From a virus, in IMG/VR virus record IMGVR_UViG_3300042542_000873, positions 1-34,678 of that record: 34,678 bases of DNA, one strand, 5' to 3'. Both the position numbers and the translations under genes were made by a program. Of this stretch, positions 16,707 to 28,134 are shown piece after piece; the stretch's first letter is position 1, and the number at the start of each line of letters is the position of its first letter. Below the pieces are notes generated by a model, which had not been told where the DNA came from, searched no databases, and was given only the letters and a program-made list of their open reading frames with translations.

Positions 16707-17125
16707 TGAAAATAGCCATTATAACCTTATTTTTGGCAGTTATTTCAATTTTGGCATATCCATACACAAAACAGGATAAGTTTGAAATTCAAGGCACTTC
16801 TGTTGATTTAAGTGTTACCATATTGGTTACAGAAGATACTGCAAAAGCAGCAGCATATGTAAGGGCTAATTTAGATACTACTGCAAAGGGGTCAGATTTT
16901 GATTGCAGGGGGGTTACATTTCCAACACAGGATGGTAAGCCAATTATTATTTGGCTGCCTAATTTAGAAGATAAAGGGGTTATAAGTCATGAACTATTTC
17001 ATGCAACTATAAGCAAGATGCAATGGGCAGGTATATCATTGACAGATGATACAGAAGAAATATATGCCTATGAACTTCAATACTTAACTAACCAATTTAA
17101 TAATCATGTCAGAAGGTCTAATTAG
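16706..17125 (+). CDS. Predicted envelope metallopeptidase with HExxH motif
   Basis: This 139-residue protein has an N-terminal hydrophobic segment (residues 3-18, IAIITLFLAVISILAY), either a signal peptide or an anchor. It then has a compact domain with HELFH at about 95-99 and a following acidic helix (DDTEEIYAYELQYL) that could supply the third zinc ligand. This is the layout of a small gluzincin-type peptidase. It would act in the periplasm or at the membrane. It overlaps by 20 bases with the SPFH gene. The substrate is unknown, and a non-enzymatic role cannot be excluded. Confidence 0.55.
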   Translation: MKIAIITLFLAVISILAYPYTKQDKFEIQGTSVDLSVTILVTEDTAKAAAYVRANLDTTAKGSDFDCRGVTFPTQDGKPIIIWLPNLEDKGVISHELFHATISKMQWAGISLTDDTEEIYAYELQYLTNQFNNHVRRSN

Positions 17126-17627
17126 AATTTTTGAATGGATAGCTGAAATTTGGCGTGATTATCTAAGCCCTGTATTAGTTCTAAGATGTTATGAAGGTGG
17201 TGTGCTGCTTAGATTAGGCACATACAGAAAGAATTTAAAAGAAGGGATTAACTTTAAAATTCCATTAATAGATGAAGTTCATTTTGTTATTACAACTATA
17301 GATACTTTTCATATAAGCCCTGTTGACATTACTACAATGGATAATAAACAGGTTTCAGTTGAACCTATTATTAAGTTTGATATTATAGACCCTAAAAAAT
17401 ACCTTGTTGATGTTAATGAAGCAGCAGGTAACATACATGACATTGCAAGGGGGGTTATTGCAGATTACCTTACAGATTGTACATGGGATGAAATAAAGAA
17501 GAAAAGCACCCTGACTGCCATTAAGAATGCCCTTAAAAAGGAATGTGATGACATGGGCATTAATATCTATAAAGTGTATTTTGGTAGGATTGTTACCACA
17601 AAAATGTACACTATCTTTAAAGACTAA
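17106..17627 (+). CDS. SPFH/band-7 domain protein
   Basis: This 173-residue protein shows the stomatin/prohibitin pattern: an N-terminal amphipathic part (LIRIFEWIAEIWRDYLSPVLVL), then YEGGVLLRLGTYRKNLKEGINFKIPLIDEV, DITTMDNKQVSVEPIIKFDIIDPKKY, and a helical end with ARGVIADYLTDCTWDEIKKK. These proteins form membrane-associated rings and often control membrane proteases. It has no strong transmembrane helix but could dip into the membrane at its start. The gene before it is a predicted membrane peptidase, so the two may form a complex. Phage examples of this family are uncommon in my knowledge. Confidence 0.75.
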   Translation: MSEGLIRIFEWIAEIWRDYLSPVLVLRCYEGGVLLRLGTYRKNLKEGINFKIPLIDEVHFVITTIDTFHISPVDITTMDNKQVSVEPIIKFDIIDPKKYLVDVNEAAGNIHDIARGVIADYLTDCTWDEIKKKSTLTAIKNALKKECDDMGINIYKVYFGRIVTTKMYTIFKD

Positions 17628-17639
17628 CTAAGTTCTTTA

Positions 17640-17669
17640 GTAATTGTTGCTAATGTTTTTAGCAATTAC
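17640..17669 (+). terminator. Hairpin between SPFH gene and early control region
   Basis: GTAATTG (17640-17646) pairs with CAATTAC (17663-17669). An inner CTA/TAG helix, a 3-nt bulge and T-rich loop complete it. The Ts are in the loop rather than after the stem, so it is a weak terminator or a protein-binding site. It abuts the 30-bp repeat. Confidence 0.4.
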
Positions 17670-17696
17670 CATTCATCAGTTTTATTTGCCGTTCAT
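17667..17696 (+). repeat. 30-bp direct repeat, copy 1
   Basis: The 30 bases 17667-17696 (starting TACCATTCATCAG, ending TTTGCCGTTCAT) are identical to 27627-27656. It contains two TTCAT half-sites. Copy 1 ends 8 bases before the TTTG of a promoter. A regulator-binding site (operator or activator site) is the simplest reading. Confidence 0.85.
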
Positions 17697-17704
17697 GTAT
17701 TTTA

Positions 17705-17736
17705 TTTGGATATGTTGTGTGTATCCTGTATATTTG
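17705..17736 (+). promoter_or_regulatory. Early promoter 1 (Bacteroidota type)
   Basis: TTTG at 17705-17708, a 20-bp spacer and TATATTTG at 17729-17736 match the Bacteroidota -33/-7 consensus. ATCCTGTATATTTG is nearly the same as in the promoter at 27686. A leader with AACAAACAAAC follows, then the ATG at 17803. It should drive the replication operon. Confidence 0.75.
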
Positions 17737-17802
17737 TTGTATAGTTCTTTGATATATTAACAAACAAACAGGTGAGGCACACCATAAACTGCACAAACAA
17801 TT

Positions 17803-18024
17803 ATGAGCAAGTATCTTTATCAATCCAATGAAGGTAGAACAAGCACAATGACTTTTGAAGAAATTCAAAAAGATTGGGATGGAACTAAATTATTTATTAG
17901 GGTATTATTCTTAATGGATAAATTAAAAGTATCACAAGATGAAGCATGTAAAGTATCTAAATTAGAATTTAAAAAACTTAACAAAGACTACAAAAGTGCA
18001 ATTTATCAAGCATTAAATTATTAA
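17803..18024 (+). CDS. Hypothetical early protein
   Basis: This 73-residue protein has an N-terminal polar part and a helical C-terminal half (TKLFIRVLFLMDKLKVSQDEACKVSKLEFKKLNKDYKSAIYQAL). It is the first gene after early promoter 1 and 30-bp repeat copy 1, so it is among the first expressed after infection. Such proteins often act on host functions, but no family was recognised and this is not shown. A G/C hairpin follows its stop. Confidence 0.65.
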   Translation: MSKYLYQSNEGRTSTMTFEEIQKDWDGTKLFIRVLFLMDKLKVSQDEACKVSKLEFKKLNKDYKSAIYQALNY

Positions 18025-18031
18025 ACAAACA

Positions 18032-18051
18032 GGGGGGTGAAATATCCCCCC
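18032..18051 (+). promoter_or_regulatory. G/C hairpin in leader of 18067 gene
   Basis: GGGGGG (18032-18037) pairs with CCCCCC (18046-18051) around the loop TGAAATAT. No T run follows, so it is not a classical terminator. It lies 15 bases before the ATG at 18067. The core of 16 bases is identical to that of the terminator at 3079-3094. It may pause transcription, shield mRNA or control translation. Confidence 0.6.
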
Positions 18052-18066
18052 ATTAATATTACAACT

Positions 18067-18339
18067 ATGAGAACAGAAATTTATTCCTATGAACAATTAT
18101 GTCAAATGTATGGTAAGCATATTATTGACCCATTAGAAACTTATGAGTATTGGCAATTACAGACTACAGGACAGATTTTATTTCAAGGCACACCTTATGA
18201 CCTGCATGATTGGTTAGCTATTACCAAGAAAAAAGCAACACCATTTGCAGGGTATGACTATGAAGATGATGCATTTACATTTGGGCAATGGATGCAACAT
18301 CAGGCTGAAATGGAATATAACAAAATGATTGAAATTTAA
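18067..18339 (+). CDS. Hypothetical early protein
   Basis: This protein has 90 residues from the ATG at 18067. A GTG start at 18037 inside the hairpin is in frame, but it would place the hairpin in coding sequence and is less likely. The protein begins MRTEIYSYEQLCQMYGKHIIDP, contains TTGQILFQGTPYDLHDWL, and ends in an acidic helical region. No family was recognised. The leader TACAACTATGA is shared with the gene at 28006, which also follows a hairpin. Confidence 0.6.
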   Translation: MRTEIYSYEQLCQMYGKHIIDPLETYEYWQLQTTGQILFQGTPYDLHDWLAITKKKATPFAGYDYEDDAFTFGQWMQHQAEMEYNKMIEI

Positions 18340-18360: not shown

Positions 18361-18990
18361 ATGAAAAACTTACTACAAGCACTTGTTAAATTTAACAATG
18401 AAGTGCACCCAATTATTAAAGGTGCAAACAATCCTTTCTTTAAATCTAAGTTTGCTGATTTAGCAACTATTCAGATGACCATTAAAAACCCATTAGGTAA
18501 AAATGGTTTAGTTATAACACAGGCAAACATATGGACTGATAGTCAATTGTTTGTTGAAACAAGAATATGGCATAGTGAATCAGGTGAAAACATAGCTTCA
18601 GTATTCCCTGTTATTGTAAACAAACAGGCAGCACAGGATTATGGGTCTGCAGTATCTTATGCAAAAAGATATTCACTAAGTGGGCTAATGAATCTAATCA
18701 TTCAGGATGAAGATGATGATGGTGAAAAAGCACAGGGCAGAAATAACCCTGCACCATTACCTGTTAATCTTAATGAAGATAAGAAATTGTATCTTATAAC
18801 ATTACTTGAAAAGACTGCCTATGATGATGATACTAAAGATAAGTTAGCTATGAAGATTGAAGCAATGAATACACCTGCACAATTTAAGAAGGCTGAAGCT
18901 AATTTGTTAGCTAATCAAATTGAAGATAGGAATAGGATAGCAATGGGCTTAAACTATAATCAATCAGACATTAAAAAAACACTTAAATAA
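18361..18990 (+). CDS. ERF-family single-strand annealing protein
   Basis: This 209-residue protein has ERF-family marks: NPFFKSKFADLATIQMTIKNPLGKNGLVI near the start, and GSAVSYAKRYSLSGLMNL followed by IQDEDDDGE (about 94-122). ERF proteins anneal complementary single strands and promote phage recombination or genome circularisation. The C-terminal 80 residues are a polar linker and helical end. A SSB-like protein and a VRR-NUC nuclease lie downstream, a plausible recombination set. The length is normal for the family. Confidence 0.85.
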   Translation: MKNLLQALVKFNNEVHPIIKGANNPFFKSKFADLATIQMTIKNPLGKNGLVITQANIWTDSQLFVETRIWHSESGENIASVFPVIVNKQAAQDYGSAVSYAKRYSLSGLMNLIIQDEDDDGEKAQGRNNPAPLPVNLNEDKKLYLITLLEKTAYDDDTKDKLAMKIEAMNTPAQFKKAEANLLANQIEDRNRIAMGLNYNQSDIKKTLK

Positions 18991-19386: not shown

Positions 19387-19587
19387 ATGGAAAACAGATG
19401 GGGTATAAAAATTAGCAGGATTTCAATTCCTGAAGAAAAACTAACCTATAATCAATGGGTTAGGCAATTTAATGTTTCAAGTCTATATGAAGATAGGACT
19501 GAAATACTTAGCAAGTCATGTATTAATAATCAATACAATTTTTCAAAATTAAAACAAAAAAATGAGTCAAAAACTACAGGTGCTTAA
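19387..19587 (+). CDS. Hypothetical small protein
   Basis: This 66-residue basic protein starts at the ATG at 19387, directly after the previous stop (TAATATG). A longer in-frame extension upstream would overlap the previous gene by about 90 bases and is not favoured. It contains ENRWGIKISRISIPEEKLTYNQWVRQF and a Lys/Asn-rich end. No family was recognised. It overlaps the HTH gene by 26 bases. Confidence 0.5.
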   Translation: MENRWGIKISRISIPEEKLTYNQWVRQFNVSSLYEDRTEILSKSCINNQYNFSKLKQKNESKTTGA

Positions 19588-19768
19588 TCACCTTAAAAAA
19601 GAAACCCTAACACCATTAGTGGCATTAAGAAAGTATGGTACACTTAGATTAGCAGCTATTGTATTTAACCTTAGAAATGAAGGTTATAGAATTGAAACTA
19701 ATAGTATCAATGTAGGTACAAAGAAAAAACCTAAGTATGTAGCTAATTATAAATTAATAAAACTTTAA
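19562..19768 (+). CDS. Helix-turn-helix (winged) protein
   Basis: This 68-residue protein reads as one helix-turn-helix unit: QKLQVLNHLKKETLTPLVALRKYGTLRLAAIVFNLRNEGY followed by a beta wing (IETNSINVGTKKKPKYVANYKL). It resembles the short phage HTH_39-type domains. It lies in the replication operon and could be a regulator or a DNA-binding accessory. Which sites it binds is unknown; the 30-bp repeats are one possibility. Confidence 0.65.
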   Translation: MSQKLQVLNHLKKETLTPLVALRKYGTLRLAAIVFNLRNEGYRIETNSINVGTKKKPKYVANYKLIKL

Positions 19769-19994: not shown

Positions 19995-20432
19995 ATGATT
20001 TCAACTACTAAACAAGAATTAATAAATACATATTCTTCTATAAGAAAAGGGTTTTCAGACCTACACAATATAATGAAAAAAGAAAATTTAATTGATGATG
20101 ACTTTTTTAATGTTCAATATCCAAAAATTGCAACACCTGAAAAAATAGTAGAATTAGTTAATGATTTCTTTGATGCTGATTTAAGGGCTAAGAATAGAAA
20201 GAAAACAACTATTTATGCAAGACAAGCAGCAGCATATATTTTAAGAAAATATACCCATTTGTCACTACAGGAAATAGCATTTAATGTAGGGCTTACAGAC
20301 CATACAAGTGCTATATATCATGTCAGAAAATGTCAGGATATTATGGATACAGAAGAATGGTTTAGGGATAAAGTTTATTATATTATTGCTGAAATAGAAG
20401 AATATTTAGTACATTTGAAGTCTAAAGATTAA
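19995..20432 (+). CDS. DnaA domain-IV-like DNA-binding protein
   Basis: This 145-residue protein has a C-terminal half matching the DNA-binding domain of DnaA: TTIYARQAAAYILRKYTHLSLQEIAFNVGLTDHTSAIYHVRK (about 75-116). LTDHTSAIYHV corresponds to the DnaA signature GRDHTTVIHA. The N-terminal half is helical and lacks the AAA+ ATPase. It may bind DnaA-box-like sites at the phage origin or interfere with host initiation. It directly precedes a structured RNA candidate and the initiator gene with internal repeats. Confidence 0.75.
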   Translation: MISTTKQELINTYSSIRKGFSDLHNIMKKENLIDDDFFNVQYPKIATPEKIVELVNDFFDADLRAKNRKKTTIYARQAAAYILRKYTHLSLQEIAFNVGLTDHTSAIYHVRKCQDIMDTEEWFRDKVYYIIAEIEEYLVHLKSKD

Positions 20433-21988: not shown

Positions 21989-22283
21989 ATTAACTAAGTG
22001 GGCTAAAACCAATTTTGAATATATGGGTTATAGACTTAACAGGGTTAACAATATACCTTATGGCAAAAGAAAAGGCACTATTCAAAAAGGATGGGCAGAC
22101 CTACAGGGTTACACTACAGATGGTAAATATTTGGCAGTTGAAATTAAAAAACTTGGTGACAGATTAAGCATTGACCAAAAAGAAAGATTTAATGATATAC
22201 ATAAATGTGGGGGGATTGTGTATATTTGTACTGAAAAGGATAACAAGCCTATTCTTATAGAATGGTCAAAACTGAAATTATAG
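21969..22283 (+). CDS. VRR-NUC domain nuclease
   Basis: This 104-residue protein matches short phage VRR-NUC nucleases: GWADLQGYTTDGKYLAVEIKKLGDRLSIDQKERF (about 41-75) has the metal-binding Asp and the E-x-K core, and the basic YGKRKGTIQKG precedes it. HKCGGIVYIC follows as the last strand. These PD-(D/E)XK enzymes cut branched or structured DNA, so a role in resolving recombination or replication intermediates is likely. It overlaps neighbours on both sides. Confidence 0.8.
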   Translation: MDISANELTKWAKTNFEYMGYRLNRVNNIPYGKRKGTIQKGWADLQGYTTDGKYLAVEIKKLGDRLSIDQKERFNDIHKCGGIVYICTEKDNKPILIEWSKLKL

Positions 22284-22744
22284 CTAAGCTATGGGATAAC
22301 AAAGAAGTGAATGAAGCATTTTCCAAGATGCATCCTGTAGAACTGCAATATGATTTGAAGGCTGAAGTTTTTTTAGTTCTTTGTGAAATGGATGATGACA
22401 AGTTGATAGGAATGTATAACAGAAATGAAATAAGATTTTTTTTAGTTAGGGTTATGCTTAACATGATTAAATCAGACAGAAGTACATTTTGGAAACAATA
22501 TAGAAACTATACTGAATATGATGGTAAAGAACAGGTAGAAGTAGTACAGGCAAACATCATAGACAAAATGGAATCAAGCATTGAAAAACTACATTGGTAT
22601 CAAAAAGAAATATTAAGACTATATGCATTAGACTTTAACAAGAATGCAAAAGAACTAAGCAGACAAACAGGAATACCATACATGTCAATAATAAGAACTT
22701 TAAAACAAACTAAAACAGAACTAAAGAAAAACATTAGAACATGA
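22262..22744 (+). CDS. Sigma-factor-like transcription regulator
   Basis: This 160-residue helical protein ends with a sigma region-4-like helix-turn-helix: KLHWYQKEILRLYALDFNKNAKELSRQTGIPYMSIIRTLKQTKTELKK (about 111-157). The N-terminal half, with DLKAEVFLVLCEMDDDKLI and IRFFLVRVMLNMIKSD, has the look of a degenerate region 2. Phages use such proteins to redirect host RNA polymerase to late promoters. The repeated CCTATTTAT elements at 852, 4147 and 29534 are natural candidates for its targets. The family link is moderate, and an unrelated HTH protein is possible. Confidence 0.6.
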   Translation: MVKTEIIAKLWDNKEVNEAFSKMHPVELQYDLKAEVFLVLCEMDDDKLIGMYNRNEIRFFLVRVMLNMIKSDRSTFWKQYRNYTEYDGKEQVEVVQANIIDKMESSIEKLHWYQKEILRLYALDFNKNAKELSRQTGIPYMSIIRTLKQTKTELKKNIRT

Positions 22745-27561: not shown

Positions 27562-27583
27562 AAGTTGCTTTATAGTGCAACTT
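27562..27583 (+). terminator. Hairpin after large terminase
   Basis: AAGTTGC (27562-27568) pairs perfectly with GCAACTT (27577-27583) around an 8-nt loop. No T run follows directly. It lies 12 bases after the terminase stop and probably ends or slows that transcript before the second early control region. The rest of 27584-27626 shows only a loose ATGATT direct repeat. Confidence 0.5.
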
Positions 27584-27626: not shown

Positions 27627-27656
27627 TACCATTCATCAGTTTTATTTGCCGTTCAT
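27627..27656 (+). repeat. 30-bp direct repeat, copy 2
   Basis: Identical over 30 bases to 17667-17696. Copy 2 ends 29 bases before the TTTG of its promoter, so the spacing differs from copy 1 (8 bases). Being in non-coding DNA before two otherwise similar promoters makes a shared operator likely. Confidence 0.85.
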
Positions 27657-27685
27657 CACAAAGTTTAAAAATAGTTGGCTTAATG

Positions 27686-27718
27686 TTTGGAATGTGTATA
27701 TATCCTGTTATATATTTG
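27686..27718 (+). promoter_or_regulatory. Early promoter 2 (Bacteroidota type)
   Basis: TTTG at 27686-27689, a 21-bp spacer, and TATATTTG at 27711-27718 match the Bacteroidota consensus. The segment GTGTATATATCCTG just before is shared in part with promoter 1. It is followed by AAACAAACAAACAAACC and the ATG at 27739. Confidence 0.75.
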
Positions 27719-27738: not shown

Positions 27739-27954
27739 ATGCAAACTTTAACAACAAACAATCAAGAACAATTATTAAAAAAAGGTGATTATGCAACTTT
27801 TAAAACTATGTATGGTGACATAGTTAAAAGAAAAGTGCAATCTGTTTACAAGCGAATCAATGGAACTTATAGTTATAATACAAGTGGCAATAATGGTGGG
27901 CAGGGATGTAATGGTTATGCATTTATGAATGAAGATATTATTAAAATTAACTAA
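27739..27954 (+). CDS. Hypothetical early protein
   Basis: This 71-residue protein has a beta-type pattern (KGDYATFKTMYGDIVKRKVQSVYKRI), a Gly/Asn-rich loop (NTSGNNGGQGCNGYAF), and a final acidic strand. It is the first gene behind early promoter 2. It shows no clear similarity to the first gene of the twin module (17803). No family was recognised. Confidence 0.65.
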   Translation: MQTLTTNNQEQLLKKGDYATFKTMYGDIVKRKVQSVYKRINGTYSYNTSGNNGGQGCNGYAFMNEDIIKIN

Positions 27955-27988
27955 CCCCAAAAGTCAGGGGTGCGACTGACCAACGCAC
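27954..27988 (+). promoter_or_regulatory. Double hairpin in leader of 28006 gene
   Basis: ACCCC (27954-27958) can pair with GGGGT (27967-27971), and GTGCG (27970-27974) with CGCAC (27984-27988). The two stems share bases 27970-27971, so they either stack in trimmed form or exclude each other. The ATG at 28006 follows 17 bases later after TACAACTATGA, as in the 18067 leader. Translational or transcript-stability control is possible. Confidence 0.45.
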
Positions 27989-28005
27989 ATTTTAAAAATA
28001 CAACT

Positions 28006-28134
28006 ATGAACAGATTAAAAACAATACAGGAAAAAAGAAATGAGCAATACAAAGCAGAAAGCCTATCAGGTAAATGGTTTTGGTACATCATGGGTGCTGC
28101 TTTATTATTAACTGCCTTAATTGAAAACATATGA
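28006..28134 (+). CDS. Small membrane protein
   Basis: A 42-residue frame with a basic N-terminal half (NRLKTIQEKRNEQYKAE) and a hydrophobic C-terminal helix (about 24-40, WFWYIMGAALLLTALI). It is probably tail-anchored in the inner membrane. The stop overlaps the next ATG (ATGA). No family was recognised. Confidence 0.55.
   Translation: MNRLKTIQEKRNEQYKAESLSGKWFWYIMGAALLLTALIENI

Follow-up and report, generated by a model that had tools for sequence, protein, structure and literature searches.

A putative LytTR-type operator heads both main gene units in a group of uncultured Bacteroidota phages

What reads a 30-base sequence that a phage genome carries, letter for letter, in front of two promoters 10 kb apart? 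The virus record analysed here (34,678 bp, examined whole and called the window) has all its evident genes rightward. Copy 1 of the 30-mer TACCATTCATCAGTTTTATTTGCCGTTCAT (17667-17696) lies between a Band_7/SPFH gene and an ERF recombinase/HTH_39/DnaA_C operon that extends as far as terS/terL; copy 2 (27627-27656), also on the + strand, lies 77 bp past terL, ahead of small ORFs and then the structural genes, so that its module stands upstream of these as well. Open frames at both ends of the record suggest circular permutation and, if the record is permuted in this way, the two promoters would divide the genome into two rightward units. The phage-encoded protein directly upstream of copy 1 (window 17106-17627) carries the Band_7/SPFH domain.

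The surroundings are those of an uncultured group: a DNA search found no cultured relatives, and terL reaches only 26-35% identity among its best-ranked matches in cultured phages. Here we ask which part of the repeat is conserved, how it is placed relative to the promoters and which protein is most likely to bind it.

Two modules share a paired half-site

The window holds no further copy of the 30-mer at up to three mismatches, and none is expected from shuffles, which bears out the identity noted in the preliminary description. The promoters behind the two copies are, as it also stated, nearly identical (TTTG, 20 or 21 bp, TATATTTG), although the distance from repeat to promoter differs, and both modules continue with an AACAAAC leader, a small ORF and a second ORF after TACAACTATGA (Table 1). 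The G/C hairpin that had been assigned to both is a plain GGGGGG/CCCCCC hairpin in module 1, whereas module 2 has an H-type pseudoknot instead.

Table 1 Features of the two control modules and their surroundings in the window
Feature	Position	Strand	Description
Inverted repeat	17640..17669	+	GTAATTG(TT)GCTAA / TTAGCAATTAC; adjoins copy 1; read from sequence
Putative operator copy 1	17668..17697	+	half-sites ACCATTCATC 17668-17677 and GCCGTTCATG 17688-17697; 20-bp period; pair conserved in relatives
Promoter 1	17705..17736	+	TTTG 17705 (-33), 20-bp spacer, TATATTTG 17729-17736 (-7)
Leader element	17771..17792	+	GGTG-AG-GCA-CACC-ATAAAC-TGC; 10 nt before start codon
First ORF, module 1	17803..18024	+	73 aa; hypervariable slot
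Hairpin	18032..18051	+	GGGGGG/CCCCCC; between first and second ORFs of module 1
Second ORF, module 1	18067..18339	+	followed by ERF recombinase
ERF recombinase	18361-18990	+	downstream of module 1 second ORF
HTH_39	19562-19768	+	module 1 unit
DnaA_C	19995-20432	+	module 1 unit; terS/terL at end of unit
160-aa conserved protein	22262-22744		HTH-like C-terminus by eye
Hairpin	27562..27583	+	AAGTTGC-N8-GCAACTT; after terL
Putative operator copy 2	27628..27657	+	half-sites ACCATTCATC 27628-27637 and GCCGTTCATC 27648-27657; 20-bp period
Promoter 2	27686..27718	+	TTTG 27686, 21-bp spacer, TATATTTG 27711-27718
First ORF, module 2	27739..27954	+	71 aa; hypervariable slot
H-type pseudoknot	27963..27989	+	GTCAGGGGTGCGACTGACCAACGCACA; stem 1 TCAG/CTGA, stem 2 GTGCG/CGCAC
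Second ORF, module 2	28006..28134	+	42 aa; small hydrophobic protein; conserved in relatives

Relatives were fetched by terL and by the Band_7 protein. As these define it, the conserved unit is the direct repeat ACCGTTCATC-N10-ACCGTTCATC and not the whole 30-mer: the half-sites and the 20-bp period are fixed, and the linker is freer, varying between copies and genomes. As the linker differs in this way, we take the exact identity of the 30-mer here to be a local feature, and the identical linkers of the two copies may perhaps reflect recent copy-to-copy conversion.

With terL as the anchor, and the motif playing no part in selection, the element was found after terL in 57 of the 67 distinct relatives' downstream regions, against 0 of 75 reversed control regions; since the other 10 do without it at this place, it is not essential to the family. 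The collected loci contain 94 half-site pairs at exactly the 20-bp period and few at other periods, the reversed control giving one. Among whole records, 13 of 22 have a match at up to three mismatches and 11 of these 13 hold at least two copies, each with a same-strand pair 9.8-11.3 kb apart, which in one record (G013) spans the record's ends. The element also heads related modules in loci without terL similarity, where ERF or a relative of the protein encoded at 28006 follows. Extra copies on the opposite strand were seen at position 1331 (-) of locus L017 and in records G003 and G011; a leftward promoter follows at least one of them.

A control element shared by two promoters with different first genes, as originally proposed, is thus an architecture that relatives conserve and, given both, a single regulator reading the two modules would be the simplest account.

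The paired site is phased with the promoter

The Bacteroidota sigma-ABfr consensus places TTTG at -33 and TAnnTTTG at -7 (PMC7366714), and both window promoters have these elements. Strict matches to TTTG-N19-21-TAnnTTTG occur only twice on the two strands of the 34.7-kb window, each adjoining a repeat; shuffles give a mean of 1.4 per window, so the count of two is not significant by itself. A scan for E. coli-type promoters (98 in the window, 114 in shuffles) was uninformative. Upstream, the inverted repeat that adjoins copy 1 forms a weak stem without a T-run and is a possible candidate for the end of the preceding transcription unit.

The 9-mers of copy 1 end 8 bp ahead of the -33 box and those of copy 2 end 29 bp ahead of it, two turns further and in phase. 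Measured from half-site 2 to the start of the -7 box, the distances are 31 bp in module 1 and 53 bp in module 2, which belong to different distance classes. Across 29 sites that are mutually less than 80% alike, this distance is only ever 31-34, 40-41 or 50-55 bp, with no site at 35-39 or 42-49 bp. The steps correspond to one helical turn (Rayleigh test on the distinct distances alone, p ~0.015; p is far lower when sites are counted singly, but independence is then overstated). One relative (L068) lacks 20 bp compared with its kin, a natural two-turn deletion. Such phased distances are as expected of a protein that would touch RNA polymerase from one face of the DNA.

The element resembles LytTR operators

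LytTR operators are built from direct repeats of 9 bp with 10-13 bp between them and usually stand immediately ahead of the -35 box (PMC6193735, PMC11347149). The phage element has 9-mers ACCATTCAT/GCCGTTCAT in the window and the consensus ACCGTTCATC in relatives, separated by 11 bp at the period seen in all 94 pairs, and the 8 bp between copy 1 and the -33 box fall within the reported 4-11 bp. The half-site is identical to the site of the Pseudomonas aeruginosa regulator AlgR at rhlI (rhlI-ABS, CCGTTCATC, core CCGTTCGTC), and the variants found at algD, CCGTTCGTC in RB1/RB2 and CCGTTTGTC in RB3, are both seen in the phages (PMC4064291). AlgR sites are, however, often single or irregularly spaced, whereas the phage sites are always paired at exactly 20 bp and, unlike those of AlgR, lie in phages with Bacteroidota-type promoters.

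The operators of HdrRM/BrsRM (PMC6193735) and of the AgrA type are likewise 9-bp direct repeats, two turns apart, upstream of a promoter, and the BrsR site ACCACTTAT-12-ACCGCTTAT resembles variants in two relatives (L031, L061). The phage operators differ in their gap (11 bp rather than the usual 12 bp of LytTR systems), in copy 2 lying two turns further from its promoter and in having neither a LytTR gene nor a membrane inhibitor adjacent, unlike HdrRM/BrsRM. The phage encodes no operon of regulator and membrane inhibitor of the kind that makes up a LytTR regulatory system (LRS), and the LytTR domain (PF04397) was found in 0 of 38 distinct phage records including the window, several of the records being fragments.

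Scanned with a strict pattern, 84,980 species, represented by one genome apiece, returned three matches, one of them in a Saprospiraceae genome (L101/G031) in which two stand-alone LytTR genes flank three half-sites at the 20-bp period; a search of sequences in the PDB gave no relative for one of these LytTR proteins. Two further Bacteroidota pairs (L230/G064 and L339/G764) follow genes for LytTR-domain response regulators at distances of ~30 and ~115 bp. As two of the three genomes with LytTR-adjacent pairs have only 21 and 5 LytTR genes, chance would not be expected to place so few matches next to such genes. Close chromosomal matches to the pair are rare: 9 of 395 Bacteroidota genomes have one, mostly by chance. 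An exact pair in another Bacteroidota genome (L237, 1500-1540) stands upstream of what by eye is an L-rhamnose isomerase-like gene, with no LytTR gene within 1.5 kb in the 3 kb examined, and a gammaproteobacterial match (L103) stands upstream of a sigma-factor gene. Scanning the whole phylum for the motif as a host search gave few matches, mostly chance, and a terL search across the order of G031 gave a best identity of 39% and no close prophage.

The LytTR-like operator, the chromosomal LytTR neighbours and the lack of a LytTR domain in the phage records together make a host LytTR regulator the leading candidate, and the best explanation of the repeat is probably a LytTR operator read by such a protein. 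In the proposed mechanism, two direct half-sites of 9-10 bp (ACCGTTCATC type), which share one face of the DNA at a distance of two helical turns and lie upstream of a Bacteroidota housekeeping promoter, would be bound by a dimer of a host LytTR-family regulator, which may be a response regulator of the AlgR/AgrA type or a stand-alone LytTR protein. The bound regulator would contact RNA polymerase, most likely activating it, and both rightward units, one for recombination, replication and packaging and the other for small genes and structural genes, would answer to the same host signal. LytTR as the binder, its host origin and activation over repression are the parts of this explanation that we infer.

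Alternative binders and functions

As possible binders the preliminary description had listed, besides host extract, two phage proteins, HTH (19562) and DnaA-like (19995), and a phage-encoded binder, be it one of these or the HTH-like 22262 protein, could in principle coordinate both units. A self-encoded regulator is simple, and the candidate genes, which lie in the operon behind copy 1, are widely conserved: the 22262 protein is present in 48 of the loci collected for comparison, with no significant Pfam match and no match among cultured phages. Yet two relatives (L033, L050) keep all three genes and show no operator pair, after terL or elsewhere, in the DNA examined, a pattern that disfavours a phage binder while staying compatible with one of changed specificity. 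The sequence, spacing and position of the half-sites are moreover of the LytTR operator type, and the chromosomal pairs adjoin LytTR genes; we regard a phage binder as unlikely and both originally named proteins as poor candidates. At the two module starts of L033 no shared repeat pair was recognised as a replacement operator. A repeated AATGCACTTT motif at L033 11360-11430 stands after terL, where the LytTR-type element would be, and is possibly a site for another regulator.

That the host LytTR protein acts instead as a repressor, or that the host uses the site to shut off incoming phage promoters, finds precedent in AlgR, which both activates and represses and represses rhlI from this very half-site (PMC4064291), and in CoxC, a LytTR repressor. 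The CoxC operator overlaps the -35 box, however, unlike the site here, which precedes the promoter, in phase with it and ~45-95 bp ahead of the start, as suits activation; nor would one expect phage promoters to retain sites at which a host repressor acts. We consider repression quite unlikely.

Replication-origin iterons or packaging sites that lie near promoters by coincidence might be suspected, as the direct repeats adjoin AT-rich DNA, one copy comes straight after terL and the genome encodes a DnaA-like protein. With just two units per site, however, two copies 10 kb apart that are both linked to a promoter at helically phased distances, and similar pairs beside host LytTR genes, this reading is very improbable. 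A chance duplication or recombination scar of no regulatory role, suggested by linkers that are identical between the copies of this genome and not in the relatives compared, is scarcely credible, and a scar was rejected as the repeat's origin, when dozens of diverged genomes conserve half-sites and 20-bp spacing while linkers change.

Exchangeable first genes and RNA elements follow the promoters

The ORF immediately behind the promoter is a hypervariable slot, with 43 families at 72 sites. The first ORF of module 1 is replaced by an unrelated one in three relatives (L001-L003), and in two of them (L001, L003) the swap behind copy 1 begins at the start codon, the promoter being nearly identical. 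Small size, exchangeability and a place straight after a strong promoter typify genes for early host takeover or counter-defence, so these hypervariable ORFs may be candidates for such functions.

The leader element ahead of the module 1 ORF is a candidate mini H-type pseudoknot. Its motif recurs as GTGAGGCACAC-TATAAAC-TGC in six relatives (L015, L017, L113, L136, L144, L176), and GCA/TGC changes to ACA/TGT in relatives.

Behind the first ORF, module 2 and many relatives carry the RNA CAGGGGTGCGACTGACCAACGCACA, which is widespread in IMG/VR (at least 157 distinct contexts). We based the counts on a looser, sequence-based set, in place of one chosen with pairing as a criterion. Among the matches listed, stem 2 (GTGCG/CGCAC) pairs in 157 of 157 distinct contexts and stem 1 in 156 of 157, both stems show compensatory changes and the first pair of stem 1 is seen as C-G, G-C, T-A and A-T; in the loci fetched by pattern, neither side of that pair was constrained, and its covariation there is not a product of selection. 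Median distances are 10 nt from the preceding stop codon to the pseudoknot and 21 nt from its end to the following start codon, and about half of these pseudoknots have an operator within 1.5 kb upstream. Searched against Rfam, the window returned chance matches that all fell below threshold, six relatives returned nothing and the pseudoknot has no match. The simplest guess for its role is translational control of the following gene.

Discussion

Phage promoters with sites for a host two-component response regulator have a parallel in cyanophages, in which host PhoB acts on selected genes through Pho boxes (PMC10976474). Those boxes control selected stress-responsive genes, whereas the element described here heads both main units and points to another regulator family. 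The promoters share the -33 and -7 elements of sigma-ABfr promoters (PMC7366714), the phased operator being the new part. A literature search of partial coverage found no description of LytTR sites on phage promoters.

A wider reading, which we offer tentatively, is that a large uncultured group of Bacteroidota phages gates both main units, and thus its whole infection programme, by host LytTR signalling, so that the envelope, density or stress state of the host would set expression; the same promoters would also serve a slot in which hypervariable small genes are exchanged, with a conserved pseudoknot behind it.

A putative operator that heads the two main units in a widespread group of phages provides a testable case of infection tied to host signalling. 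The paired box, phased promoter, hypervariable first gene and pseudoknot form a portable signature for finding early accessory, possibly counter-defence, genes in uncultured phages, and matching LytTR regulons offer a search handle for the hosts of these phages.
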